Of a stretch of DNA of 22,685 nt, positions 1,759-22,578 are shown piece after piece. The notes under the pieces are model-generated. The model made no database searches. It saw only the letters and a list, made by a program, of their open reading frames with translations, and was not told the origin of the DNA. The first letter of the stretch is position 1. Every line of letters starts with the position of its first letter. The translations under genes and the position numbers were made by a program. Origin of the DNA: a virus. The stretch is taken from the IMG/VR virus record IMGVR_UViG_3300025785_000105, positions 1-22,685 of that record; one strand, 5' to 3'.

Positions 1759-2397
1759 ATGACTATTTACAAACTCTATGTCAAAACCCATAATAAAACT
1801 GGGTTAAAATATCTCGGCAAAACTACAGCAAAAGATCCTCATAAGTATACAGGATCTGGTTTGTACTGGAAACGCCATCTCGAAACACATGGTAAAGATT
1901 ATACTACAGAAATACTTCGAGAATGTCAAAATTCATTCGATGCTAAATCCTGGGGAATGTATTATAGCAACCTCTGGAACATAGTTGAAAGTAGTGAGTG
2001 GGCTAATCTTAAACCTGAGGCAGGAGACGGAAATGATCCCGAAACTGCTCGTAAAATAAATCAGAAGCGAATAAGCGAAGGCACCCATAACTGGCAAAAT
2101 AGTGAAACAGCAAGTCAACGAGCAAATATTAGATTAGCAAATAATAACCATCATTTCTTAAACAAAGAATGGGCTCGCGAAAAAGAACTTAACAAGGTAA
2201 AGAATGGAACTCATCCGTTCCTCGGGGGAGAAGTTCAACATAAATCTAATATAGAAAGATTGTCTAAAGGAACACATAACTTTCAAGGATCAAACAACCC
2301 AAACAATATAAAAATAACTTGTCCTCATTGCGGTAAGATAGGAGGTAAACCTAATATGATTAACCATCACTTTGATAAGTGTAAACTTAAACCATAA
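1759..2397 (+). CDS. GIY-YIG homing endonuclease (Seg-like)
   Basis: A 212-residue protein. The N-terminal catalytic module has the spaced signature Y4-KLY ... KYLGKT (residues 4-22), followed by a conserved YTGSGLYWKRHLETHG segment (30-45) typical of phage GIY-YIG enzymes. The middle holds three repeats of the NUMOD3 type (GTHNWQNSE, GTHPFLGGE, GTHNFQGSN), which bind DNA in related homing endonucleases. The C-terminus has a possible zinc finger, CPHCGK ... HHFDKC. Free-standing enzymes of this family (T4 SegA-E) cut related phage genomes and spread their own gene. It sits between the metallopeptidase and a bidirectional terminator, and interrupts no visible gene. Its coding DNA is AT-rich. 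Confidence 0.9.
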   Translation: MTIYKLYVKTHNKTGLKYLGKTTAKDPHKYTGSGLYWKRHLETHGKDYTTEILRECQNSFDAKSWGMYYSNLWNIVESSEWANLKPEAGDGNDPETARKINQKRISEGTHNWQNSETASQRANIRLANNNHHFLNKEWAREKELNKVKNGTHPFLGGEVQHKSNIERLSKGTHNFQGSNNPNNIKITCPHCGKIGGKPNMINHHFDKCKLKP

Positions 2398-12091: not shown

Positions 12092-14422
12092 ATGATCACA
12101 GTGGTCAAACGTAATGGGGAGAAGGTTCCTTTGGACATCTCCAAAATACAGAGACAAGTAGCCCATGCATGTAACGGGATTGACGGAGTTAGTCCTAGCA
12201 TGGTAGAAATTAAAGCACAAATAGAACTACACGATGGCATGACCACAAAGACAATAGATGAACTATTGTTAAAAGCCATGGTAGATTTGATTGATGAAAC
12301 AGAAAATCCAGAAATCAATAATGTAAACTATCAATACGTAGCTGGACGTCAGCGTGTTAGTATGTTGCGTAAAGAAGTTTATGGTAGTTATACTCCTCCT
12401 AAACTCTACGACATTGTTAAACGTAATGTAGAACTGGGTATGTATACCTCTGAACTTTTAGATTGGTATACAGAAGATGAATGGAACATTATTGATTTGT
12501 TTATCGATCATGCCAAGGACGAAAGCTATACCTATGCTGCCATTGCCCAACTATGTGAAAAGTATCTAGTGCAAAATCGTGCCACTAATACTATCTATGA
12601 AACCCCGCAAGTTCGTTATGCTGTGGCATCTGCTACTGCTTTCCATGGTGAACCCCAAGACAAGAGATTAAAATATGTTAAAGAATACTATGAATGTGCC
12701 AGCGATGGCCACTTTACCCTTGCTACACCAGTATTGGCTGGGCTGGGCACTACCACTAAGCAGTTTTCAAGTTGCGTGCTTATCAGTAGCGATGACACCC
12801 TGGACAGTATATTTGCCGCAGGCGAAATGATGGCCAAATATGCTTCAAAACGAGCTGGAATCGGCCTGGAAATCGGCCGAATTCGCCCGTTAGGAGCACC
12901 AATTCGCAATGGAGAAATCAAGCATACGGGTTTGATACCATTCTTGAAGAAATGGTTCGCAGATCTACGTAGTTGCTCACAAGGCGGTATTCGAAACGCC
13001 AGTTGTACAGTTACATTTCCGTTGTGGCATTATCAGTTTGAAGATCTTATTGTATTGAAAAACAATCAAGGTACAGACGAAACTCGTGTTCGTCAAATGG
13101 ACTATAGCGTAGTTGTTAATAAGATGTTTTGGAATCGTTACAAGAACAAACAAACCATTACCTTGTTTGATCCTGCCGAAGTTCCAGACTTGTACATGGC
13201 TTACTATCGTAGCACCGAAGAGTTTGAACAACTATACTTAAACTATGAAAAGCATCCGACAATTAAAAAGAAAGTCGTATCGGCAGATGAGATTTTCAAA
13301 AATCAGATCCTTAAAGAAAGGACTGATACGGGGCGCATATATCTTGTCAATGTCGACAACGTCATTGCCCAAGGCCCGTTTGATACGACAACAGATCCTA
13401 TATATCAATCAAATCTATGCCAAGAAATACTTTTACCCACCCGTCCTTTCCAGAGAATTGAAGATCCAGAGGGACGAATTGCTCTTTGCACTCTTGGCAG
13501 CATCAACTGGGGTGCCTTCCGTAACCCTCAGGAAATGAGAAAAGCCTGTCGTGTACTAGTACGCAGTCTGAGCAACCTGCTGAACTATCAAGATTTCTTG
13601 AGCGTACAAAGTAAACTAGCAAATGAAGATTTTGAACCCCTGGGTGTTGGTATTACTAATTTGGCTTTTTGGCATGCCCGTCGTAGTTACAAATATGGCA
13701 CAGCAGAAGCTCTAGCAGAAGTCAAACGCTGGATGGAACATCAAGCATACTACCTTACCGAGACTAGTGTAGAACTTGCCCAAGAAAGAGGGGCCTGTAA
13801 GCGTAGCGAATACACTTACTACGGTAAGGGAGTATTCCCTTGGGAACGTCGTAGCGCAGGTGTTGATGAACTAACAGACTTCACACCTAGTATGGATTGG
13901 GAACCGTTGCGTGAACGTATGAAAACATATGGTATTCGTAATGCTACCTTAATGGCAGTGGCTCCGGTGGAGTCCAGTAGCGTTGTATTAAACTCTACTA
14001 ATGGTATTGAGATGCCCATGGAGTTGATCAGTGTTAAGGAATCCAAAGCAGGTTCATTCGTGCAAGTAGTTCCTGACTATCGTAGATTAAAGAACCGCTA
14101 TCAACTGATGTGGGACCAAACCGATTGTGTTGACTATTTGAAAACCAGTGCTGTGTTAGCCGCTTATATTGACCAAAGTCTAAGCACAAATACATTCTAT
14201 AATCCAGCACACTTTAAGGACGGTAAAGTTCCTGGCACACTGATTGCTAAGAATCTAATGCTGGCCAGTAAGTGGGGATTGAAGACCATGTACTATTCAT
14301 TGATCAATAAAGTAGGTGCAAAGACTTCTTTAAATACTCAAAGTGATAGATTAGTGCCAGCTGAACCTGTTACAGTATATGCTGAACTGGAAGATGATTC
14401 TTGCGAAGCCTGCAAGTTGTAA
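12092..14422 (+). CDS. nrdA: Class Ia ribonucleotide reductase, large subunit
   Basis: A 776-residue protein that reduces ribonucleoside diphosphates to deoxy forms together with NrdB. It has an N-terminal ATP-cone (residues 2-95, VVKRNGEKVPLDISKI ... YVAGRQR), so dATP control may be kept. Catalytic residues are all present: Cys228 in QFSSC, the NLCQE motif with Asn441/Cys443/Glu445, Cys466 in GRIALCTLGS, and the Tyr pair in LKTMYYS. The C-terminal redox pair is CEAC (Cys771, Cys774), two residues between cysteines rather than four as in the E. coli protein. RSCSQGGIRN is also intact. Uninterrupted by intron or intein; an HNH endonuclease gene follows. Confidence 0.97.
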   Translation: MITVVKRNGEKVPLDISKIQRQVAHACNGIDGVSPSMVEIKAQIELHDGMTTKTIDELLLKAMVDLIDETENPEINNVNYQYVAGRQRVSMLRKEVYGSYTPPKLYDIVKRNVELGMYTSELLDWYTEDEWNIIDLFIDHAKDESYTYAAIAQLCEKYLVQNRATNTIYETPQVRYAVASATAFHGEPQDKRLKYVKEYYECASDGHFTLATPVLAGLGTTTKQFSSCVLISSDDTLDSIFAAGEMMAKYASKRAGIGLEIGRIRPLGAPIRNGEIKHTGLIPFLKKWFADLRSCSQGGIRNASCTVTFPLWHYQFEDLIVLKNNQGTDETRVRQMDYSVVVNKMFWNRYKNKQTITLFDPAEVPDLYMAYYRSTEEFEQLYLNYEKHPTIKKKVVSADEIFKNQILKERTDTGRIYLVNVDNVIAQGPFDTTTDPIYQSNLCQEILLPTRPFQRIEDPEGRIALCTLGSINWGAFRNPQEMRKACRVLVRSLSNLLNYQDFLSVQSKLANEDFEPLGVGITNLAFWHARRSYKYGTAEALAEVKRWMEHQAYYLTETSVELAQERGACKRSEYTYYGKGVFPWERRSAGVDELTDFTPSMDWEPLRERMKTYGIRNATLMAVAPVESSSVVLNSTNGIEMPMELISVKESKAGSFVQVVPDYRRLKNRYQLMWDQTDCVDYLKTSAVLAAYIDQSLSTNTFYNPAHFKDGKVPGTLIAKNLMLASKWGLKTMYYSLINKVGAKTSLNTQSDRLVPAEPVTVYAELEDDSCEACKL

Positions 14423-14424
14423 AC

Positions 14425-14472
14425 TATAAGTTTTCTGCAAACTATGATAAATAGTTTTGCAGAAAACTTATA
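14425..14472 (+). promoter_or_regulatory. Long hairpin enclosing a late-promoter-like site before the HNH gene
   Basis: The arm at 14425-14445 pairs with 14451-14472, giving 21 base pairs with a single bulged T and the loop GATAA. GATAAATA (14446-14453) lies across the loop and could act as a late promoter. The 3' arm runs up to and includes the A of ATG 14472. No T-run follows, so this is not a standard terminator of nrdA. Confidence 0.68.
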
Positions 14473-15146
14473 TGAATTACCAAAAGATATATGATAATAT
14501 AGTAAGGAGAGGACAGCATAGAATATTAGAAGGATATAGTGAAAAGCATCATATTGTTCCGAGATGCCTTGGAGGAACAGATGACGTAACTAACTTAGTA
14601 TCGCTAACACCAGAAGAACATTATTTGTGTCATCTTCTATTAGTTAAAATACATCCTAACAATATACGTCTAGTCAAAGCCGCTATGTTTATGGTATCAG
14701 CAAACAAAGATCAGCAACGCAACAACAAAGTATATGGGTGGTTGAAACGGCAGTATTCTGAATATATGCAGGGACCAAATAATCCTTCAAAATTAAACGG
14801 TCCATGGAATAAAGGCGTTACAGGATATAAAACTAATGTAATTTTTTCAGAAGATACTATAAAACAAATTTCTGAAAGAATGAAAAGTAACAACCCGTGT
14901 GCAGGTGTTAAGCCATGGAATCATCCCAGAGCAACAGATTACTCTAAATCTGTTTGGAAACAAGCAGGTACGATTTATCAAGTATGGACAGAAAATAGCA
15001 AGCCATCTTATTGTAAGTTATATACATTAGTGAACAATAAATGTTATACTAATGATTCAAAAGTTATCGGTCCTTATATGAATATGGTGAAGTATTTTAG
15101 GAACGGATGGATTCCTGTAGAAGATAACGAATGGATTAAATTATGA
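14472..15146 (+). CDS. HNH homing endonuclease between nrdA and nrdB (MobE-like position)
   Basis: A 224-residue protein from ATG 14472 (a TTG at 14457 is in frame but lies within the hairpin arm). The HNH module is EKHHIVPRCLGGTDDVTNLVSLTPEEHYLCHLLL: His26-His27, Asn41 and His50 are the expected catalytic and structural positions. The remainder has the WNKGVTGYK- and NPRA-type linkers seen in phage homing enzymes, then a C-terminal region probably reading DNA. T4 and its close relatives carry the HNH gene mobE at this same nrdA-nrdB junction. The gene overlaps the next as ATGA. AT-rich codon use fits a mobile gene. Confidence 0.9.
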   Translation: MNYQKIYDNIVRRGQHRILEGYSEKHHIVPRCLGGTDDVTNLVSLTPEEHYLCHLLLVKIHPNNIRLVKAAMFMVSANKDQQRNNKVYGWLKRQYSEYMQGPNNPSKLNGPWNKGVTGYKTNVIFSEDTIKQISERMKSNNPCAGVKPWNHPRATDYSKSVWKQAGTIYQVWTENSKPSYCKLYTLVNNKCYTNDSKVIGPYMNMVKYFRNGWIPVEDNEWIKL

Positions 15147-15919
15147 GAATAGCATATTACGGAAATAGTTTTGCCGAAAGCGGCCACGATATTTCTTGGA
15201 CAAAAGTTTTGGCAAGAAAAATGAACGCTGACTATTCGCAATCTTTTGCCAAGGGTGGTAGTTCTTTATTATATTCTTATCAACAGTTTTTAAAGAATTA
15301 CAAAAACTTTGACCTTAATGTTTTTGTAGTCACACATTGGGAAAACTATTCAAGAGAACTACCATTGATGCATAAGGATGGGACTACAAAAATGTTTCGT
15401 CCAAACAGCATACACAATGTAGAAGAAATGATTAGAATGAATAAAGACATACTAACCAATACTGCTATTGAAACTTTAGAATATCTAAGAGGTTGGTTTA
15501 TTGTAGCAGACGATGAATATATGATTCTAACATGGGAGTTGATTTTAAAACATGTTGAATCACTAGATCCTAAAGTTGTTTTTATTTCATCGGGTGATTT
15601 AAAAGAAAAAGATTTTATGTATAGCGATGAAAAAAGACGTAAACAGTTTAAGCGACATTTATCTCAATATCATCATATACAAACAAAGAGTCTGGGAATG
15701 GTCGAGCCTTGGAGTTATGACGGTAAGACCAAACTAAGAGAAAGTCCAGATACTATGGCTAATCACTTAACTGAAGAAACGGCTAAAATAGTTGCTGATT
15801 CAATTTATTCTTTGATTACCACAGGGGAAATGTTACCGGCACCTTCTCGAATCGAACACCAATATACATATGAACACTACTATCTCTCTGAAGATAGAGG
15901 ATACGTTTGGAGCAGTTAA
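15143..15919 (+). CDS. SGNH/GDSL-hydrolase-like protein
   Basis: A 258-residue protein. Block I is YGNSFAE near the N-terminus (residues 5-11; Ser9 the probable nucleophile), KGGSSL matches the block II glycine region, VVTHWENYSR takes the place of block III, and a late NHLTEETAKIVADSI matches block V with its catalytic His. Asp in 'SPDTMANHLT' could complete the triad. The family cleaves acyl or acetyl esters, often on polysaccharides or lipids; this protein lacks a signal peptide, and the substrate is unknown. It sits between the homing endonuclease and nrdB, translationally coupled to the former by ATGA, and may have travelled with it. Confidence 0.7.
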   Translation: MRIAYYGNSFAESGHDISWTKVLARKMNADYSQSFAKGGSSLLYSYQQFLKNYKNFDLNVFVVTHWENYSRELPLMHKDGTTKMFRPNSIHNVEEMIRMNKDILTNTAIETLEYLRGWFIVADDEYMILTWELILKHVESLDPKVVFISSGDLKEKDFMYSDEKRRKQFKRHLSQYHHIQTKSLGMVEPWSYDGKTKLRESPDTMANHLTEETAKIVADSIYSLITTGEMLPAPSRIEHQYTYEHYYLSEDRGYVWSS

Positions 15920-15921
15920 AA

Positions 15922-17016
15922 ATGAGTAAAGAACAATATAATTTATCAGTAGCACCTAACTACTTAAAACGACGAATGTTTTTAGATGGTGCTGTTACAG
16001 TACAGAGATTTGAGGAATTCCGTCATCCTAAGATTGCTAAGTTTGAAGAACTAGCACGGGGATTCTTTTGGGTTCCTGAAGAAATCAGTCTTACCAAAGA
16101 CAAAATGGATCATAAGGATGCTAGTGATGCTGTTAAACATATCTTTACTAGCAATCTTCTAAGACAAACAGCCTTGGACAGTATTCAAGGTCGTGCACCG
16201 AATCAAGTTTTTGGCCCAGTGGTATCTATCCCTGAGCTAGAAGCATTGATCAGCAACTGGAGCTTTTTTGAAACAAATATTCATTCAAAGAGCTACAGTC
16301 ACATTATTAGGAATGTTTATGGTGTACCCAAAGAAGAATTCAATAAAATCCATGATACACAAGAAATTGTGGGCATGGCTGCTAATATCGGTAGATACTA
16401 CGAAGCGTTACACGAACTCAACTGCCGCAAAGAATTGGGTGAAGAAATTTCAACAATGGAACATAAACGTGCTATCTGGTTGGCTTTGCAGGCCAGTTAC
16501 GCACTCGAAGCACTGAGATTCATGGTCTCTTTTGCTACTAGTTTAGCCATGGTGGAAAATAAAATCTACATTGGCAATGGTAACATTATTAGTTTGATTT
16601 TACAAGACGAATTATTACACGCAGAGTGGACTGCTTGGATTATTAATCAAACAGTCAAAGAAGATGCAGACTTTGCAGAACTGGAAAAAGAATGTGCCGA
16701 AGAAGTCTACGCCATGTACTTAGAAGTTATTGCAGAAGAAAAAGCATGGGCTGACTACTTGTTCAAAAAAGGTCCTGTGATCGGTCTTAATGCTACTATT
16801 CTAAAAGACTTTGTGGATTATACAGCATTTACACGACTGAAGGAAATAGGAATTAAATATTTAGAAGATCATCCTAAGAGTAATCCTGTTCCTTGGTTTA
16901 ATAAACACGTTAACATCAATAAAAAGCAAACAGCATTGCAAGAAAATGAATCTACTAACTATGTTATCGGAGTAATGAGCGATAATGTTAGTTACGACGA
17001 GTTGCCCGATCTATAA
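15922..17016 (+). CDS. nrdB: Class Ia ribonucleotide reductase, small (radical) subunit
   Basis: A 364-residue protein carrying the di-iron/tyrosyl-radical site. ATG 15922 is chosen over an upstream in-frame TTG because GGAGC lies 8 bases ahead. Iron ligands by alignment with the E. coli protein: Asp86 (LDSIQGR), Glu117, His121, Glu196 (LEALRF), Glu230 and His233 (DELLH); the radical Tyr is Tyr125 (HSKSY). The first pair reads ETNIH, one residue longer than the usual ExxH. The C-terminus NYVIGVMSDNVSYDELPDL is the tail that binds NrdA and holds the conserved Tyr of the radical path. It lies 3 bases after the SGNH-like gene. Confidence 0.95.
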   Translation: MSKEQYNLSVAPNYLKRRMFLDGAVTVQRFEEFRHPKIAKFEELARGFFWVPEEISLTKDKMDHKDASDAVKHIFTSNLLRQTALDSIQGRAPNQVFGPVVSIPELEALISNWSFFETNIHSKSYSHIIRNVYGVPKEEFNKIHDTQEIVGMAANIGRYYEALHELNCRKELGEEISTMEHKRAIWLALQASYALEALRFMVSFATSLAMVENKIYIGNGNIISLILQDELLHAEWTAWIINQTVKEDADFAELEKECAEEVYAMYLEVIAEEKAWADYLFKKGPVIGLNATILKDFVDYTAFTRLKEIGIKYLEDHPKSNPVPWFNKHVNINKKQTALQENESTNYVIGVMSDNVSYDELPDL

Positions 17017-17027
17017 TAGGGATTGTA

Positions 17028-18188
17028 ATGAATATCGGTGTTGTTACCAGCCCGTCTGTTAGAGATGATATATTAACGCCTTTCTTGTATCCCCTAACCA
17101 ATGGGGAGATTGAGATGCTGGATGCGTTTGTCACGTCCAGTAAAATATACCATCCTAACAAGTTTAAAATTAAGGAAGGTGGACATTGTTATCACTTTAG
17201 TAAAAATTTAGACGACATAAACTATTGTGATATAAAACTCATGGTAATGCCTGTGTCATCTGATGCCTTTCATATTATTCAAAAATATGAAAATGATATA
17301 GATTATTTTATATTTTCCAGGCAAGATGACGAAGCAGAGCATCCTACTAATATGCAGTATATAAAAAGCCTGTTAGAAAGATCCAATACAATTTTCATTT
17401 ATCCACATGGAATAAATCAATCTGAAAATCCTAGATGTATTGTAGATTATTCAATTAATCTTTATTTGCATTATCATGCGTTTGGGTTTTATTATTTGAA
17501 CTATTATCCTAATAAAGAAAAACAACACCTTGTGGGAGTGTACAATAGATTTGATAACTATAAACCTTTTAGAAAAAAAACAATAGAGTATTTTCGTTCA
17601 AAAGTTGACCCCGAAGATATTCATATTTTTAAAACAGAAACTCCATATACTTCTAGCATAAGTGGCCAACTACTAGATAGATGGTCGTGGCAACAGATGC
17701 ATATATCTTCCTACACTGATTATAACTCATCTGTTGCAAATATAGTGTTTGAAACTGGTGCTGTAGTTACTGAACGATTTTTATTCTCAGAAAAAACTGT
17801 TAAAAGTATAGCGTTTCAAAGTGCTGATATATTTTTCATATACATGGGAATAAGTAAAGGTATTGAATGGTTACACGAAAAAGGATTTTGGTTTTTAAAT
17901 AGCGAGTTTTATGATACAGAAGATGACGATTTTGATTATGATAATTTAGGACGTCTTACTATGTTTAAATCAGAGTTTCCTTTAATGCGTAGTGTACAAC
18001 GATCAATAAACTATTTAAAAACATTAAAAGAAGAACTAAAAACAAATAATGCAGTACATGCGTTTTTAGTAAAAAAATATAGAGATAAGTTAGATGCCAA
18101 TGAACAAGCATTTAAAAAACTATTAACAAATTGCGAATACAAAGAAAAACTGTTAAACTTAATAACTAAAAAGGAGATAACATTATGA
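17028..18188 (+). CDS. Unidentified 386-aa protein, possibly glycosyltransferase-like
   Basis: MNIGVVTSPSVRDDILTPFLYPLTNGEIEMLDAF... A large soluble protein with many aromatic and acidic residues. The segment around residues 240-300 (NIVFETGAVVTERFLFSEKTVKSIAFQSADIFFIYMGISKGIEWLHEKGFWFLN) has the form 'TE...SEKT.K.IA......I..G....I..L...GF' seen in phage and bacterial proteins sometimes annotated as glycosyltransferases (compare the SEK motif of GT10). I cannot assign a function with confidence. It lies 12 bases after nrdB behind AGGG and overlaps glutaredoxin as ATGA, so it is part of the nucleotide-metabolism unit by position only. Confidence 0.7.
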   Translation: MNIGVVTSPSVRDDILTPFLYPLTNGEIEMLDAFVTSSKIYHPNKFKIKEGGHCYHFSKNLDDINYCDIKLMVMPVSSDAFHIIQKYENDIDYFIFSRQDDEAEHPTNMQYIKSLLERSNTIFIYPHGINQSENPRCIVDYSINLYLHYHAFGFYYLNYYPNKEKQHLVGVYNRFDNYKPFRKKTIEYFRSKVDPEDIHIFKTETPYTSSISGQLLDRWSWQQMHISSYTDYNSSVANIVFETGAVVTERFLFSEKTVKSIAFQSADIFFIYMGISKGIEWLHEKGFWFLNSEFYDTEDDDFDYDNLGRLTMFKSEFPLMRSVQRSINYLKTLKEELKTNNAVHAFLVKKYRDKLDANEQAFKKLLTNCEYKEKLLNLITKKEITL

Positions 18189-18433
18189 CAAAGGCTATTG
18201 TTTGGAGTAAGTATAACTGTACCTTTTGCGATCAGGCAAAGGCATTATTAAAGCAACGTGGTATTCCCTACGAGGAAAAGAAAATCGGTGACGGCTATAC
18301 TAAAGAAGAACTATTAGAAGCAGTACCAACAGCACGTACTGTTCCACAGATTTTTATTAATGACCAACTAGTTGGCGGCTTTACCGAACTCAAAAAATAC
18401 ATTGAGGAAACGGCTGGCGGATATGGCGACTAA
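18185..18433 (+). CDS. grx: Glutaredoxin
   Basis: An 82-residue thioredoxin-fold protein. The redox motif is CTFC (Cys12-Cys15) in YNCTFCDQAKALL; TVPQIFI holds the cis-proline loop, and GGFTELKKYI is the C-terminal glutathione-binding region. It is the expected electron donor to the NrdA C-terminal cysteines, and gene order nrdA-nrdB-grx fits that role (T4 has nrdC). ATG 18185 overlaps the previous stop (ATGA), preceded by AAGGAG at 18171-18176; the next gene starts 11 bases before its end. Confidence 0.94.
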   Translation: MTKAIVWSKYNCTFCDQAKALLKQRGIPYEEKKIGDGYTKEELLEAVPTARTVPQIFINDQLVGGFTELKKYIEETAGGYGD

Positions 18434-18983
18434 AGAAGAACTTGATAAACTCAAAGAAGCCTTAGAAAAGGTAAATTCTTTTGAAGTTGAGTTTGATGAT
18501 AAACCATCAATTGGCATTATTGCCCAAGAGATTGAAGAGTTTCCGGGACTTGAAAGTCAAGAACTCCCGGCATTGACTACTTTGGATTTGTCTAGTTTAT
18601 CTAGTCTATGGAATATGCCTAGCGGCAACATTACTATAAGTACAGGTGCAACAGGAAGTTCTGGATCAATATTAACCAGTGCTGGTGCTAACGGAGCTTC
18701 TTGGTCAAATTATGGAAATTCTGGTCCATATACAATATCTTCAGCTGGCTTTAATCCCAAGAGTTCCCTGGAAGTCAGCGGTGATGCAAACTTCGAAGGC
18801 GATATCAAGTGGAGGGGTCGCAGTCTAGGAGATATGCTAGAGACCATTGAAAGTCGGTTGGCCATATTGGTTCCTGATCCAGAAAAACTTGAACACTTTG
18901 AGGCATTACAAAAGGCCTACGAACATTATAAAACTTTAGAAGCATTGTGCACAATGCCAACAAAGGATGACACAGAACACTAA
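18423..18983 (+). CDS. Phage protein with C-terminal helical 'RLAIL-P' module (186 aa)
   Basis: ATG 18423 gives MATKEELDKLKEALEKV...; the longer frame would lie inside glutaredoxin. Three parts are visible: an N-terminal acidic helix (1-35), a Gly/Ser/Thr-rich stretch (75-125, TGATGSSGSILTSAGANGASW) like fibre linkers, and a C-terminal module SLEVSGDANFEGDIKWRGRSLGDMLETIESRLAILVPDPEKLEHFEALQKAYEHYKTLE. I recall that last module (strand pair, helix, 'RL.IL.P..E', helix) in many phage structural-type proteins. A virion role is likely; nothing enzymatic shows. Confidence 0.68.
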   Translation: MATKEELDKLKEALEKVNSFEVEFDDKPSIGIIAQEIEEFPGLESQELPALTTLDLSSLSSLWNMPSGNITISTGATGSSGSILTSAGANGASWSNYGNSGPYTISSAGFNPKSSLEVSGDANFEGDIKWRGRSLGDMLETIESRLAILVPDPEKLEHFEALQKAYEHYKTLEALCTMPTKDDTEH

Positions 18984-19458
18984 TTCTGCCAAAGGCAGAT
19001 CTAGCTATGATGTAGAAGTAGGAGGATTAATTGTTCCGTTTTTTAATAGGAATGTTACTCCTTACGCTACAGAAGCGGGCGGTCCTAAATTTGATCTAGT
19101 TCCTGTTGAAAAGCAAAAAGATGTAATGCTGAATGTAGCACGTCTACATGCTCAACAGGAATATGATAGAATAATGGAAATGGTTGAAGTATTGCAGCGT
19201 CAAGCCAATCAAATCAAACGTAGACTGGAAATAACTGATGCTGTACACGCAGCAAAATATGACTTTCAAGTTTCGCATGGTCAAAACTATTGGCTGGTCT
19301 ATGATACTAGGCATAAATTTACAAGACTATGTCTACAAGGGCCCGATGAATGGTCATCAGGTCCACCAGTAGATTATGAATATTTTGCAAGGGTTAAATA
19401 CCTAGGCGATTATAGTTGGCAAGAAATAGATAAAGAAGGAAACTATGTTACTAATTAA
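18967..19458 (+). CDS. DUF2452-like protein
   Basis: A 163-residue protein. The core AGGPKFDLVPVEKQKDVMLNVARLHAQQEYDRIMEMVEVLQRQANQIKRRLEITDAVHAAKYDFQVSHGQNYWLVYD matches my memory of the DUF2452 family, found in bacteria and T4-like phages and of unknown function. The long helix (residues 50-95) is followed by a beta sheet with aromatic residues (NYWLVYDTRHKFTRLCLQGPDEW). It overlaps the upstream gene by 17 bases, with AAAGG in front of ATG, and the downstream gene by 14 bases. Confidence 0.74.
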   Translation: MTQNTNSAKGRSSYDVEVGGLIVPFFNRNVTPYATEAGGPKFDLVPVEKQKDVMLNVARLHAQQEYDRIMEMVEVLQRQANQIKRRLEITDAVHAAKYDFQVSHGQNYWLVYDTRHKFTRLCLQGPDEWSSGPPVDYEYFARVKYLGDYSWQEIDKEGNYVTN

Positions 19459-19735
19459 TAAAGGTTATAAATCGGGCGATGTTGTTAGTTTGAAACTGAT
19501 CAACAGTGATGAAATCATTGCACGGTTTGAAGAAGAAACTGACACCACTATCAAAATCAATCGCCCATTGGCATTGACCATGAACGCACAAGGACTGGGA
19601 ATGATGCCTTGGATGATTCTGGGTAGTGATGAGTTTATTACACTAAGCAAGACACATGTCATGGCAATCAGCGCTAGTAAACAAGATGCCGCAGATCAAT
19701 ATATTCAAGGTACAACAGGTATCGCATTAAAATAA
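19445..19735 (+). CDS. Small Sm/Lsm-like beta-barrel phage protein (96 aa)
   Basis: MLLINKGYKSGDVVSLKLINSDEIIARFEEETDTTIKINRPLALTMNAQGLGMMPWMILGSDEFITL... The pattern 'GDVV...L..GDEIIA.......I...RP..L' is that of a small five-strand barrel as in Sm/Lsm proteins and is common in T4-like marine phages; the exact role is not known. AAGGAA lies 4 bases before ATG 19445, inside the preceding gene. Coupled translation with the DUF2452-like protein is likely. Assignment to Sm-like is tentative. Confidence 0.66.
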   Translation: MLLINKGYKSGDVVSLKLINSDEIIARFEEETDTTIKINRPLALTMNAQGLGMMPWMILGSDEFITLSKTHVMAISASKQDAADQYIQGTTGIALK

Positions 19736-19736
19736 T

Positions 19737-20804
19737 ATGTCCATTGAATCCAGTTTAACTCCGTCGACTTTGATATTAGATCCTATTCATGGGTTTAACA
19801 TGCAGGCTATTGCTGATGGTCTATCCAAGGCTTACCCTGCGTCAACTACTTCGACCACAGTTACTGGTGTATATGTTCCTATTGTTTGTATGGGCGGCTG
19901 TGTAAAAACAGGCATTATTAATCCAGAAAACGATGCTAAAGAAACTGCTAGTCGGGTTTACAACTATGCCATGCAGGCAGCATATCAACCTGTATGGAAT
20001 GTGTTATATGCTTTATATGAAGCACTTAAAAGATTTGGTCTAGGTGTGATAGATTTAAAATTGCCTGTGTTTGATTTACACATTAGTGATTTATTCAATC
20101 CAGATATTACCTGCGTTATAGAAAAAATCATTAATAAATTATTGGCAAAATTCAAAAACGCATATGATAAGTTTCTAGCAGAGATTAAAAGGATTTTTGG
20201 ATTACTGGGTATTCCTTTTCCGTTGTTTAAAAATCTAAACAGTCCATCGGAACTAATCAAATACATTGTCAAACACATTGTGGCAAGTTTATGGGATCAG
20301 TTGTCTAGAAAGATTAGACTGATTATAGATTTAATCCAAACAGGTTTAAAAATCTATGATTCGATAGTAAAAAATGGATTTGTTTTATATAATCTTTGGA
20401 AAACAGCAATAGCCCAGCTTCTAAAAACAGTATTACATTATTTGTCAAATCCACCTAGTTTAAATGATATTAAAAATCTTCTTGAAAAATTTGCCAAAAA
20501 AGTTTTAAAGAAAGCACAAGTTACTATTGCTGAAATATTATCAGTAATAGATAAGTTTAAACTACCAATATTTGGAAATCCGTTTGATTGGAAACTCCCA
20601 TTGAATATACATATGAAGATTCCTGAACTGGATTTTAATAAAATAATAAACGATATTAAACTTTGGCTAAACAACTTTGTGATGAACTTGATGATTAAGT
20701 TTATACAACTTGTTGAGAGAATATTGAAAATATTTGGGATTACTTTTCATTTGCCCAAGATACATATTCCGTTTTTTGTTTGTACATTAAAAAATACCCC
20801 TTGA
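19737..20804 (+). CDS. Unidentified amphipathic-helix-rich phage protein (355 aa)
   Basis: MSIESSLTPSTLILDPIHGFNMQAIADGLSKAYPASTTSTTVTGVYVPIVCMGGCVKTG... After a ~60-residue head with two Cys (CMGGC), the rest is a succession of amphipathic helices separated by Pro-rich turns (LPVFDL, IPFPLFKN, LPIFGNPF, LPKIHIPFF), about every 60-80 residues. It is rich in Lys and Ile/Leu, and no single stretch is a clear transmembrane helix. The regular alternation suggests an elongated virion or injected membrane-active protein. I know no function. A fragment of a related gene appears at 1043-1174. It overlaps the sigma70 -35 box that follows. Confidence 0.66.
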   Translation: MSIESSLTPSTLILDPIHGFNMQAIADGLSKAYPASTTSTTVTGVYVPIVCMGGCVKTGIINPENDAKETASRVYNYAMQAAYQPVWNVLYALYEALKRFGLGVIDLKLPVFDLHISDLFNPDITCVIEKIINKLLAKFKNAYDKFLAEIKRIFGLLGIPFPLFKNLNSPSELIKYIVKHIVASLWDQLSRKIRLIIDLIQTGLKIYDSIVKNGFVLYNLWKTAIAQLLKTVLHYLSNPPSLNDIKNLLEKFAKKVLKKAQVTIAEILSVIDKFKLPIFGNPFDWKLPLNIHMKIPELDFNKIINDIKLWLNNFVMNLMIKFIQLVERILKIFGITFHLPKIHIPFFVCTLKNTP

Positions 20805-20834
20805 CAACTAGTTAGAAATACCGTACAATAAATA
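20801..20834 (+). promoter_or_regulatory. sigma70 promoter TTGACA-N17-TACAAT with overlapping AATAAATA
   Basis: -35 TTGACA (20801-20806), exact 17-base spacer, -10 TACAAT (20824-20829): the best host-type promoter in the window. The late-type octamer AATAAATA (20827-20834) overlaps the -10, so the site could be used both early and late. Confidence 0.82.
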
Positions 20835-20835
20835 T

Positions 20836-20949
20836 ATATGCTTTCGCAGGGGCAAGTTCGCGTAGCGGATAGCAGTAGTTTAGATACTTCAGGCTCGGCA
20901 GAGGCTCTACACGCCCTGGGAAGTCTGTCAATTATTTTTGGAGTTCAAT
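20836..20949 (+). promoter_or_regulatory. Long GC-richer leader, probably structured
   Basis: About 110 untranslated bases between promoter and ATG 20950. CAGGG (20849-20853) can pair with CCCTG near 20913-20918 as a closing stem. Inside, TTCGC-GTA-GCGGA and AGTA-7-TACT form hairpins. It is GC-richer than its surroundings. No known riboswitch consensus is recognised. The ribosome site is GGAG (20940-20943). Confidence 0.5.
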
Positions 20950-21354
20950 ATGAAAAAAGTCACCGCATCGATGTTTTTGATTTTTGCCAGCAGTCTATGC
21001 CTAGCACAGGAAGTTGCCACAGTGGTCAACGTTCAACCCCGTTATGTCACCGTTCAACAACGACAATGTGAACAGCGTGAAGTAGTTCGTGATAACAGCC
21101 GAGGTGACACCGCAATTGGTGCTATTGCCGGTGGTGCGATTGGCAGCACATTGGGTCACAATAGCAATGATCGACTAGTTGGCGGTATTGCTGGTGCTCT
21201 TATTGGTGGTGCGATTGGTAACGAAGCAGGTCGCGACGGTGCTAGAGCAGAAGTGCGTGAAGTCTGCAGATATGTTCCGGTTACTATTCAGCAAGGTTCA
21301 ACTGTGACCTTTAACTATCGTGGACAGGTGTTTACACAATCATTTGGTCAATAA
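20950..21354 (+). CDS. Glycine-zipper (SlyB-type) envelope protein
   Basis: A 134-residue protein from ATG 20950 (GGAG 6 bases upstream; an in-frame TTG at 20938 would include the ribosome site). A signal peptide MKKVTASMFLIFASSLCLAQ is clear. After a short region comes a glycine-zipper 2TM segment, TAIGAIAGGAIGSTLGHN ... LVGGIAGALIGGAIGNEAG (about residues 55-95), followed by a beta-type end. The family sits in the outer membrane or periplasm of Gram-negative bacteria and affects envelope integrity. In a phage it could stabilise or alter the host envelope, for example against superinfection. Such genes are usually bacterial, so host origin is likely. Confidence 0.85.
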   Translation: MKKVTASMFLIFASSLCLAQEVATVVNVQPRYVTVQQRQCEQREVVRDNSRGDTAIGAIAGGAIGSTLGHNSNDRLVGGIAGALIGGAIGNEAGRDGARAEVREVCRYVPVTIQQGSTVTFNYRGQVFTQSFGQ

Positions 21355-21355
21355 T

Positions 21356-21550
21356 ATGAAAAAGTTTGAATATATTAACTGTCGATTTTTTAGATCATTA
21401 AAACTAAGATTAAAAAATAAAACATATACAGTATATCGAAATAAACCTAATCGTACTTGGCATTTTTATGTGTTTGATAATATAGGGAGTTATTATGAAG
21501 AAGATTATAACATCGATTTTAGTAGCGTTCACAGTTCTAGCAACATTTAA
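21356..21550 (+). CDS. Small basic protein, doubtful (64 aa)
   Basis: ATG 21356, just after the glycine-zipper gene, gives MKKFEYINCRFFRSLKLRLKNKTYTVYRNKPNRTWHFYVFDNIGSYYEEDYNIDF... It is basic and aromatic with alternating strands, plausible as a small beta protein. Its last 56 bases overlap the next gene in another frame, and the ribosome site in front is poor. Either a real small gene or a spacer that happens to be open. Confidence 0.45.
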   Translation: MKKFEYINCRFFRSLKLRLKNKTYTVYRNKPNRTWHFYVFDNIGSYYEEDYNIDFSSVHSSSNI

Positions 21551-21815
21551 TGCTAATGCTCACGAGTGGCATCACGGTGGTTACTATCGTGGCGGATGCC
21601 GAGGCTGTGGTTGGGTGCCATTGGCAGCAGGGGTTGTTATCGGTGCTGAATTAGCTCGTCCCTATCCCTACATTGTAAACGAACCAGTTTATGTTCAACC
21701 ACAACCGGTATTTGTTCTGCAGCCAACATTGCCTCCTCCACCATACGGATATCACTACGAGCAAATTTTTGATTCGCAGATCAATGCTCAAAGAATTGTA
21801 TTGGTGCCAAATTGA
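21495..21815 (+). CDS. Exported His/Pro/Tyr-rich small protein (106 aa)
   Basis: Signal peptide MKKIITSILVAFTVLATFNANA with a probable cut after ANA, then HEWHHGGYYRGGCRGCGW (His- and Cys-containing, perhaps metal-binding), a short Gly/Ala hydrophobic segment (VPLAAGVVIGAELA), and a Pro/Gln-rich tail (VYVQPQPVFVLQPTLPPPPYGYHY). Similar short exported proteins are common in proteobacteria with unknown roles. AGGGAG is well placed before ATG 21495. It belongs to the run of envelope genes after the sigma70 promoter at 20801. Confidence 0.78.
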   Translation: MKKIITSILVAFTVLATFNANAHEWHHGGYYRGGCRGCGWVPLAAGVVIGAELARPYPYIVNEPVYVQPQPVFVLQPTLPPPPYGYHYEQIFDSQINAQRIVLVPN

Positions 21816-21997
21816 AACCGCTTCCAGAATATGGATGGGGTACTTTTGCAGAAGAATGGGAAAGAATGAATACACCTGAATTTGAAGAAGAACAAAAACA
21901 ATGGAGTAGATATGCTGTCACTTTTACAGCAATACTCGCTGTGGTTGTTTGCATATTAAAATATTATAATTTAATTCCCCCAAATGCGCCAGTATAA
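21812..21997 (+). CDS. Small single-TM protein (up to 61 aa)
   Basis: An acidic N-terminal part (LPEYGWGTFAEEWERMNTPEFEEEQKQW) is followed by one hydrophobic helix (YAVTFTAILAVVVCILKYY). The start is uncertain: TTG 21812 overlaps the upstream stop (TTGA), while ATG 21866 with GGGAAAG right before it gives a 43-residue version. Function unknown; a small inner-membrane protein in the envelope cluster. Its stop shares bases with the next start (TAATGG). Confidence 0.6.
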   Translation: MKPLPEYGWGTFAEEWERMNTPEFEEEQKQWSRYAVTFTAILAVVVCILKYYNLIPPNAPV

Positions 21998-22197
21998 TGG
22001 AATCGCATAAAAGAACATTAGCAAGAAGTATCACATATAGACTTAGTGCTTGGATGTTGACAATTTTGTTATCTTATATGTATACAGGCAATCTTTCAGA
22101 ATCAACTGGATTTAGTACTTTCCTACATTTGATTCTTTCATTAGATTATTATATTCATGAAAGAATTTGGATGAAGATTAGTTGGGGTAAGATTTGA
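21997..22197 (+). CDS. DUF2061 membrane protein
   Basis: A 66-residue protein, MESHKRTLARSITYRLSAWMLTILLSYMYTGNLSESTGFSTFLHLILSLDYYIHERIWMKISWGKI. The opening 'ESHKR.LAR.I.YR', the hydrophobic helix, and the closing 'YYIHERIW.KISWG' are the hallmarks of DUF2061, a small two-helix inner-membrane family of unknown function seen in bacteria and some phages. It starts directly on the upstream stop and its own stop lies within the first hairpin near ssrA. A sigma70-like promoter is buried in its middle. Confidence 0.85.
   Translation: MESHKRTLARSITYRLSAWMLTILLSYMYTGNLSESTGFSTFLHLILSLDYYIHERIWMKISWGKI
22057..22086 (+). promoter_or_regulatory. sigma70-like promoter TTGACA-N18-TATACA inside the DUF2061 gene
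   Basis: Perfect -35 at 22057-22062, 18-base spacer, TATACA at 22081-22086. It would start about 100 bases before the tmRNA acceptor piece and could drive ssrA on its own. The match could also be a chance feature of AT-rich coding DNA. Confidence 0.45.
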
Positions 22198-22209
22198 GAG
22201 TAATCTCAA
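22194..22209 (+). other. Hairpin TTGAGA-GTAA-TCTCAA at the 5' side of ssrA
   Basis: A perfect 6-bp stem with a GNRA-type loop, overlapping the DUF2061 stop codon, just before the acceptor piece. It may be the precursor's 5' end structure or a processing signal. Confidence 0.5.
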
Positions 22210-22210
22210 T

Positions 22211-22277
22211 AGTAAGACTGTATGAAGTTGACAGAAAAGGATTCTGGACGCGGGTTCGACTCCCGCCAGGTCCACCA
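22211..22277 (+). ncRNA. tmRNA acceptor piece
   Basis: Contains the GACTGT and TTGAC strands of P2, the T arm and the 3' strand of the acceptor stem, ending in encoded ACCA. The 5' end is approximate. Confidence 0.85.
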
Positions 22278-22367
22278 TAAACACATGTGGGTTTAAGTCC
22301 CAAGTGGTAGTGTTATAGACACATAGCGGCACAGCCGATACCTTTCAGATTTGAGTGTGTTTATGAT
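22278..22367 (+). ncRNA. Intervening segment removed in tmRNA maturation
   Basis: Ninety bases between CCA and the mature 5' G. TAAACACA (22278-22285) pairs with TGTGTTTA (22356-22363), extending the acceptor stem. Within it TGGG-7-CCCA, GTGT-5-ACAC and CGGC-ACA-GCCG (22327-22337) can form three small hairpins. RNase P and other RNases would cut it out. Confidence 0.75.
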
Positions 22368-22548
22368 GGGCCTGACCTGGTTTTCGACAGGGTCAAGAGT
22401 AATGAAATGGACAGTCCGGCAATGTAGAAGCCGTTAGGATTGGGGTGACCCGATCGAAGACACGCAAAAAGTAATCGCAAACGATTCACAATATTCCATG
22501 GCCGCTTGAGCCAAGGTGAGGTAACTATACCTTATTACCCAAAATAGT
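22368..22548 (+). ncRNA. tmRNA coding piece
   Basis: Starts with the acceptor 5' strand and the D-loop-like TGGTTTTCGACAGGG. It contains hairpins CGGC-9-GCCG (from 22417) and GATTGGG-GTGA-CCCGATC (22438-22455), the resume region, the tag ORF, and a 3' hairpin AGGTA-4-TACCT. The stop codon lies in the loop of CCATGGC/GCCAAGG. The 3' end lies at or just before the terminator. Confidence 0.85.
22477..22509 (+). CDS. tmRNA proteolysis-tag ORF (ANDSQYSMAA)
   Basis: Resume codon GCA at 22477, preceded by GCAAAAAGTAATC as in other tmRNAs (E. coli has GCAAAAAATAGTC). Codons read Ala-Asn-Asp-Ser-Gln-Tyr-Ser-Met-Ala-Ala-TGA. With the Ala charged on the tmRNA the added tag is A-ANDSQYSMAA. The ending MAA rather than LAA is unusual; the last two Ala, needed for ClpXP recognition, are kept. 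Confidence 0.92.
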   Translation, partial: ANDSQYSMAA

Positions 22549-22578
22549 AGAAAGGGCCTTGACGGGCCCTTTCTTTTT
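22549..22578 (+). terminator. Rho-independent terminator of ssrA
   Basis: Stem AGAAAGGGCC (22549-22558), loop TTGACG, GGCCCTTTCT (22565-22574), then TTTT. The loop sequence is also the -35 box of the next promoter. Confidence 0.92.

Follow-up and report, generated by a model that had tools for sequence, protein, structure and literature searches.

A circularly permuted tmRNA gene on a T4-like phage contig and a pseudoknotted leader RNA upstream of it

The DNA analysed here (the window) is the whole of the 22,685-base IMG/VR virus record IMGVR_UViG_3300025785_000105, the features of which are collected in table 1. Positions 22207-22576 are confirmed as a tmRNA gene of the circularly permuted form on the contig of a T4-like phage; a 90-nt spacer separates its halves, and a terminator follows. 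When the entire window was compared with Rfam by cmscan, two matches reached the gathering score, both at this locus, namely RF04321 (tmRNA_permuted) at 22216-22509 (105 bits, cut-off 47, E = 6.9e-20) and RF01850 (beta_tmRNA) at 22165-22576 (95.3 bits, cut-off 84, E = 4.6e-28), and ARAGORN reported a permuted tmRNA with the tag ANDSQYSMAA. As is characteristic of permuted tmRNAs, the acceptor half lies 5' of the coding half with the spacer between them, CCA is encoded, and the tag frame ends in a protease signal, the degradation of tagged products being a prediction. The initial annotation, made from the letters alone, had read the same gene order, on which RF04321, RF01850 (both over their Infernal cut-offs) and ARAGORN all agree; the acceptor stem with its G3-U70 pair, the T arm, CCA, P2 strands and tag frame that it had called intact are seen in the sequence in agreement with the models, the paired spacer that it described is exactly 90 nt long and closed by a helix, and the gene's own terminator is found as a hairpin of 11 pairs followed by TTTTT. 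The minimum free energy of the stretch 22200-22575 corresponds to z = −4.34, with 0/100 shuffles equally low. An identical copy of the tmRNA is present in contig IMGVR_UViG_3300025789_000120 (L129), which is 100% identical to the window over 11,138 bp and runs 3.4 kb beyond the window end. From what is known of the family, the window tmRNA would be processed into two pieces.

Table 1. Coordinates and basis of assignment of the features of the window.
Feature	Position	Strand	Basis or remark
Intron-type DNA endonuclease, free-standing	1759-2397		PHROG 12324
nrdA	12092-14422	+	family searches
HNH-like free-standing ORF between nrdA and nrdB	14457-15146		below Pfam cut-off
258-aa ORF	within nrdA-nrdB block 12092..17016	+	
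nrdB	15907-17016	+	
Glutaredoxin gene	18185..18433	+	in conserved nrdA-nrdB-grx block upstream of tmRNA
Putative promoter region	20801..20834	+	consensus matches only
Sigma70-like TTGACA-17-TACAAT	20801-20829	+	overlaps T4-late-like TAAATA 20829-20834
Pseudoknotted leader RNA, 5' UTR of the operon ending in the tmRNA	20844..20934	+	model R1, covariation
Glycine-zipper 2TM protein, PF05433	20950..21354	+	signal-like start; first gene after leader; ORF listed from 20938, later ATG (20950) taken as start
Small His/Gly-rich protein	21495..21815	+	signal-like start (by reading); no Pfam family
Small ORF overlapping its neighbours	21812..21997	+	no PHROG
DUF2061 membrane protein	21997..22197	+	stop codon just before acceptor half
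Acceptor half	22207..22277	+	5' end approximate; sequence reading, cmscan, ARAGORN, stem covariation, T-stem pair types
P2 strands, GACTGT with ACAGTC	22216-22221 with 22411-22416	+	sequence reading
T arm, GCGGG TTCGACT CCCGC	within acceptor half	+	sequence reading
Acceptor 3' strand CAGGTCC	22267-22273	+	sequence reading
Encoded ACCA	22274-22277	+	sequence reading
Intervening spacer, exactly 90 nt	22278..22367	+	closing helix extends acceptor stem; UGAU end precedes G1
Coding half	22368..22548	+	3' end approximate; holds acceptor 5' strand, D-loop region, P2 strand, tag frame
Acceptor 5' strand GGGCCTG	22368-22374	+	gives G3-U70 as the third pair
Tag reading frame ANDSQYSMAA, stop TGA	22477..22509	+	ARAGORN; protein-level selection in relatives
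Intrinsic terminator hairpin, 11 pairs, then TTTTT	22549..22574	+	sequence

The gene is ordinary for its kind. At least 120 stretches with permuted tmRNAs were recovered from IMG/VR with one pattern, and its parts were compared across 120 distinct phage tmRNAs, the window included (L001, L031, L129, L082 and identical rows being left out). The seven acceptor pairs are intact in 120/120 of these sequences and G3-U70 is invariant, while pairs 4-6 covary through several pair types (fraction paired 1.00, against approximately 0.5 with the 3' strand shuffled). The helix closing the spacer reaches at least six pairs in 116/120 sequences as opposed to 73/357 shuffled spacers, the spacer end before G1 is UGAU or UAAU in 105, and ACCA is encoded in 116. 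A terminator-like site follows 59/114 phage tmRNAs (control stretches, 9/210), and a sigma70-like promoter (at least 10/12 matches) lies just upstream of 37/119, in 33 of these at a spacing of 11-17 nt, compared with 3.7% of 2380 control stretches. Directly upstream of the window tmRNA the best such match is 7/12, so that this gene is probably read through from the promoter at 20801. For the spacer and tag measurements two rows with unclear acceptor pairing (L083, L240) were dropped. Spacers of 24-42 nt are found in 9/10 distinct betaproteobacterial genes (the tenth, L253, is doubtful), as opposed to 90 nt in the window; those of Microvirga measure 82-92 nt, so long spacers are not confined to phages, and the search pattern itself asked for 80-110 nt between its motifs. 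The spacers of L076, L095, L185, L198 and L067 contain a T-arm-like GTGGTTCGATTCCAC or GAGGGTTCGATTCCC stretch.

Comparison of the tags indicates selection on the peptide. Among the 58 distinct 10-residue tags, position 10 is Ala in 58 and position 9 in 56, and in the codons of these two residues the diversity of the first and second bases is 0-0.07, that of the third base 0.69 and 0.54; with the third bases free and Ala-Ala fixed, selection acts on the peptide as well as on the RNA, a pattern fitting trans-translation with degradation. Tags end in Ala-Ala in 132/138 phage rows and 72/77 distinct tags. The window tag ends in MAA rather than LAA, an ending shared by 14/138 phage rows (3 of them copies of the window), 8/77 distinct tags and the bacterial L252. 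The suggestion that the phage might redirect tagged proteins thus appears less likely than ordinary degradation tagging, since the C-terminal Ala-Ala is selected. Some tags end differently, in RYA (phage X1, L002 5951-6401) or SNA (L145, L146), and may be altered tags or misread frames. Long tags of 24-31 residues, e.g. ANADTFDFSAMSFTGNTVRGAANESRFALAA, still ending in LAA, occur in L012, L022, L023, L028, L044, L057, L061, L064, L071, L074, L093, L100, L107, L121, L193, L194, L196, L199 and L201; by eye, relatives differ mostly synonymously, which suggests that these are real translated extensions. Phage permuted tmRNAs with tags of the form ANDAFYGE(D/E)RLAA (L015, L039, L059, L086, L096, L109, L120) closely resemble in this respect the one-piece bacterial tag ANDSFYGESRLAA of L269, L274 and L275, so that a phage tag may here match that of its host despite the different gene form.

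The tmRNA occupies a recurrent place in phage genomes, in the order nrdAB-grx, leader, tmRNA, ahpC/ahpD. nrdB is found upstream of it on the same strand in 37/38 viral loci having both, glutaredoxin likewise in 39/39, and AhpC downstream on the same strand in 20/22. In L129, the region past the tmRNA (18136-20195) encodes AhpC, an AhpD-like CMD protein and, where the contig ends, the first part of a protein resembling Gram-negative porins, which scores just under the Pfam cut-off. From the side of nrdB, a tmRNA is present in 20 of 80 relatives' loci by ARAGORN, to which RF04321, run over 31 further contigs, adds 13; the other 29 loci, with less than 3.5 kb beyond nrdB, lay outside the RF04321 search. 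Among the 27 nrdB relatives with at least 6.5 kb past nrdB, 23 have the tmRNA on the contig (14 + 9) and 4 give no match over cut-off, and these 4 are counted against the explanation preferred below.

That the gene is phage-borne, as initially annotated, is upheld by the virus record itself, by the window NrdA, which shares 60.4% identity with its counterpart in Xanthomonas phage X1, by the conserved phage gene order and by the T4 major capsid protein Gp23, present in 9/21 related records, including the 194-kb nrdB relative G005, the window itself being a fragment. The description of the surroundings as T4-like agrees with these Gp23 matches and with late-type TAAATA motifs (TATAAATA type), of which, on the plus strand of the window, 14/20 have an ORF start no more than 150 nt downstream (counted without a control set), 10 of the 14 outside any listed ORF; it is at odds with G004, a 229-kb nrdB relative with a tmRNA, in which Gp23 was not found. 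The upstream genes, described as encoding envelope proteins, are of that type where they can be recognized (PF05433, DUF2061); the others belong to no family. SmpB was found in 0/12 related records (4 isolates and 8 IMG/VR contigs, some possibly fragments), so that host SmpB is probably used.

In sequence the window tmRNA is of the betaproteobacterial type and falls within a mainly phage clade. Its nearest phage relative is 79% identical, the nearest sampled bacterial gene 56%. The phylogeny proposed at the outset was computed on rows from which L001, L031, L129, L082 and identical sequences had been taken out and only 4 Microvirga rows kept. In this tree, rooted on the alphaproteobacterial type, a branch with 97/86 support parts 8 alpha rows from the other 127; among these, the window belongs to a clade of mainly phage rows, outside the 10 beta rows, and forms with five phage rows a starred clade of 6 (support 100/100). 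L004, L005, L010 and the L177 group fall outside the main phage clade in this larger tree (88/91, not starred). In a second tree, with ten of eleven rows flagged as long removed, 4 phages group with 2 beta bacteria (97/91) and the phage rows require 3 label changes, from which it follows that phages captured the gene more than once. The host is probably a betaproteobacterium. A weak pointer in this direction comes from the downstream AhpC, which matched 17 genomes; the seven best of these, at 66-70% identity, are all from the order of G281, an order that includes carriers of the beta-type tmRNA (10/250 genomes over the RF01850 cut-off with strict filters). Of 24 loci fetched from this order (L254-L277), 21 carry a one-piece tmRNA; with this form so common there, the phage may bring a gene form that its host lacks. 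The exact acceptor-half pattern matched 0 genome contigs, and among the blastn matches listed for the tmRNA against the 250 genomes of the order almost all lie in the T arm.

At the head of the operon that would end in the tmRNA lies a structured RNA. The initial annotation had seen no riboswitch of the glutamine type here: at gathering score no Rfam riboswitch, the glutamine riboswitch included, is found in the window or in the further 3.4 kb of L129, but a structured leader that matches no Rfam family, 1.3 kb upstream of the tmRNA, had been missed. It emerged from a comparison of upstream regions as a conserved stretch that precedes the Gly-zipper gene in the window and its relatives and is found directly before the tmRNA in L008 and L204. 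A leader-only pattern retrieved 56 stretches from IMG/VR, bringing the total to 33 distinct sequences in 62 loci (some loci being one contig under two ids), of which 25 form alignment A3, with 8 near-identical ones left out. The structure comprises four nested helices and one pseudoknot, in which the loop GGCAGA pairs with UCUGUC. Pairing is kept in 97.3% of cells (25 sequences) and falls to 30-51% when the partner is slid by 1-3 columns; double changes occupy 74 cells as opposed to 17.9 after shuffling (0/500 shuffles reach 74), counts for which the structure was drawn from the same sequences and which, in related rows, can exceed those of shuffles through common descent. Since helix 1, ACAC and a portion of helix 4 had been set in the search pattern, constancy there is no evidence; helices 2 and 3 and the pseudoknot were left free, as was the UAG at the tip of hairpin 2, which is nevertheless invariant. 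The minimum free energies of three single leaders are little or no better than those of shuffled sequences (z from −0.06 to −1.01), so the claim rests on covariation and not on energy; RNAalifold, which takes no account of the pseudoknot, found only 2 double-change pairs in alignment A2. One leader hairpin has a cobalamin-like look, for which Rfam gives no support.

Within the loci searched, the leader is restricted to a clade, all its occurrences being in viral contigs of T4-like phages that carry a tmRNA, in one copy per locus. Model R1 scores 94.4 bits on the window leader, which belongs to its own alignment; it recovers 46/46 pattern-selected loci and 0/3 others, and gave no match at E up to 1 on 76 isolate or bacterial loci. 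The leader was found in 35 of 80 nrdB loci (31 scoring over 40 bits and four scoring 24-27 bits, two of the four partial) and in 5 of 120 tmRNA-pattern loci, one of which (L031) is the window's own copy. Blastn gave no match among 50,697 phage records, and the exact pattern, which detects exact matches only, occurs in 0/399 genomes. Up to E = 10, the window leader has 0 matches in Rfam, and two other copies have only chance matches to lncRNA and miRNA families, far below cut-off. No description of it was found in the open-access literature, as far as the accessible text of those papers extends; one may exist in subscription papers or preprints, which lay outside the search, and the comparison sets the leader apart from Rfam families only, as the accessible part of a table in PMC2864571 lists motifs that have no Rfam number, e.g. 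Burkholderiales-1.

The leader is positioned as a 5' element of a transcript. TAAATA, which forms the T4 late promoter core, occurs within 45 nt upstream in 32/33 distinct upstream stretches (29/660 control stretches), in 23 at −15 to −17 and in 9 at −34 to −36, and a sigma70-like promoter (at least 10/12) also precedes 13/33 leaders. Its association with the tmRNA is frequent. When 44 of the 56 leader-pattern contigs were searched with RF04321, 36 were found to hold a tmRNA over cut-off, or 32/39 with the contigs that seeded the pattern (of L142, L148, L160, L163 and L181) taken out. In 16/19 leader loci covered by a whole contig, the tmRNA over cut-off is downstream on the same strand, at 18 nt past the end of the leader pattern (approximately 5 nt past the model) in L297, L299, L300, L305, L316, L317, L325 and L335 and at 444-1478 nt in eight others; in the remaining L293, L294 and L311 only 84, 299 and 606 nt are left on the contig. 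The leader and tmRNA models are likewise 5 nt apart in L008, L181 and L204. Of the 31 nrdB loci counted with a leader, 19 extend at least 1.6 kb beyond it, and in 15 of these the tmRNA is found within 3 kb downstream on the same strand; in L141 and L143 it is approximately 8 kb past the leader, in L171 there is a sub-threshold match only, and in L180 no match downstream of the leader. A leader was not found in 13 tmRNA-bearing nrdB loci, five of which share one tag and spacing. Shared ancestry of the gene order explains part of the linkage. Since 13 nrdB loci with a tmRNA have no leader and only 5/120 tmRNA-pattern loci have one, the leader is not required for the tmRNA; and with the tmRNA 0.2-2.8 kb away, twice approximately 8 kb, it may serve the protein genes instead. 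In L113 (3612-3743), on a phage contig, a leader lies 22 nt before an ORF starting MAYSNQVIDHYENPRNVGSF, a start that we take to read like the Fe-S scaffold protein IscU.

The explanation that we favour, with a probability of approximately 0.7, is that a T4-like phage supplies its own working permuted tmRNA and that the leader acts in cis on its operon; the value is kept at this level because the leader is present in only 5/120 tmRNA loci and Gp23 is missing in G004. According to this proposal, one transcript, for which we infer the limits of approximately 20835-22575, would begin with the structured leader, continue through four small ORFs (envelope-type where recognizable) and finish with the tmRNA precursor. 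Through stacking of the acceptor stem, CCA and spacer, this precursor would fold into a single long hairpin, from which host tRNA-processing enzymes would excise the 90-nt spacer; the two resulting RNAs would stay together through pairing in the acceptor stem and P2. The tmRNA would then be charged by host AlaRS through G3-U70 and delivered by host SmpB to ribosomes stalled on broken mRNA, where the ANDSQYSMAA tag would direct the product to host ClpXP-type proteases. Ribosomes may in this way be kept free while host mRNA is destroyed. By analogy with other tmRNAs, the likely course is ordinary trans-translation, in which the tagged product is degraded, and the pseudoknotted leader would most likely act in cis on the output of the operon, tmRNA included. 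More tentatively, at somewhat less than even odds, the leader would represent an undescribed class of pseudoknotted regulatory RNAs that sets the amount of the rescue RNA, either by sensing a signal of infection or by modifying RNA polymerase.

Two other views of the tmRNA need to be weighed. It might be a functionless passenger or an attachment-site relic of imprecise prophage excision, in that ssrA is a known integration site of which fragments occur in prophages (PMC9004378). This we regard as very improbable, given that the gene is complete, its stems covary, its tag codons are selected and its location is conserved over many divergent phages, that the window belongs to the starred clade of six phages with at most 56% identity to sampled bacterial genes, and that no integrase was found among the window ORFs submitted to family scans (part of all ORFs). 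Alternatively, the RNA could be a decoy that competes for SmpB, or an altered tagger that escapes host proteases, as might be suggested by the tag-less tmRNA of mycobacteriophage DS6A, which resembles a known inhibitor (PMC11915505 and PMC4131195), and by the few phage tags without Ala-Ala (RYA in X1, SNA in L145 and L146) or the MAA of the window. The strong constraint, as protein, on the last two codons of tags that nearly all end in Ala-Ala, together with the recurrence of MAA in other phages and in L252, makes this improbable too. Selection of the tag, the recurrent position and the failure to find SmpB in the records searched favour rescue with degradation over a relic.

As to the leader, a riboswitch for a metabolite or an ion is a possibility to which we give roughly one chance in three. 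Its 5' UTR position, single copy per locus and pseudoknot would suit such a function, as would the invariance of UAG in the tip of hairpin 2, and several downstream ORFs, read from their letters, start like small secreted, often His-rich proteins, besides the IscU-like one in L113. Published precedents exist in a phage tmRNA accompanied by a glutamine riboswitch (PMC9004378) and in the leaders manA and wcaG of T4-like cyanophages (PMC2864571). Against it, no ligand is known, the constancy of ACAC is void, having been fixed by the search pattern, and the 5-nt gap in L008, L181 and L204 leaves no ribosome-binding site or intrinsic terminator as expression platform. The same closeness would suit an RNA for processive antitermination across the strongly folded, untranslated tmRNA, which we presume to be comparable to put or EAR, or an element of precursor processing or stability; the leader comes directly after promoter motifs, could act from different distances and in some loci lies against the tmRNA. 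This reading is rather unlikely in view of the lack of a match to any Rfam family, the single copy per locus and the 13 tmRNA-bearing nrdB loci that have no leader.

Permuted tmRNAs in phages have already been published (PMC9004378) and are common in IMG/VR; the part that appears to be new is the leader. In the literature, 53/133 unique phage tmRNA structures are suggested to be two-piece (PMC9004378), RF04321 is treated with 79 phage sequences (PMC11915505), and an earlier list of phage tmRNAs includes DS6A (PMC4131195). The window resembles Melnitz and the pelagimyophages (PMC9004378) in being T4-like and in having a permuted tmRNA, nrdA/nrdB and a linked structured regulatory RNA, and the likeness that the initial annotation drew to Melnitz holds to the extent that a phage two-piece tmRNA is already in print. 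It fails for the tmRNA type, which is described as alphaproteobacterial in Melnitz, whose authors locate a glutamine riboswitch in the ssrA 3' domain, and is betaproteobacterial in the window, where a different leader without Rfam family lies at the 5' end of the operon. With the betaproteobacterial tmRNA of RF01850 the window gene shares the halves, P2, the acceptor, the xAA tag end and the terminator. Structured 5' RNAs are likewise found in T4-like marine phages as leaders of the manA, wcaG and glutamine riboswitch types (PMC2864571 and PMC9004378); the present leader is distinct, three of its copies matching no riboswitch or phage leader in Rfam up to E = 10. The reasons for which lytic phages carry tmRNA are conjecture in the literature accessible to us. 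Should the leader respond to a ligand or the transcription machinery, it would tell when infection needs ribosome rescue, and, together with Melnitz, would mean that separate phage lineages have independently put tmRNA under structured-RNA control; it is the leader that makes the locus worth an experiment.

The isolated phages X1, DLP6, BUCT628, QDWS595 and Bohxovirus gave no leader match in the stretches searched; their RF04321 scores range from 70.6 to 136.8 bits, and 3/5 also match RF01850. The permuted tmRNA is unannotated as such in the corresponding stretches L002 (X1), L003 (DLP6), L004 (BUCT628), L005 (QDWS595) and L006 (Bohxovirus), and these isolates open the way to genetic tests.
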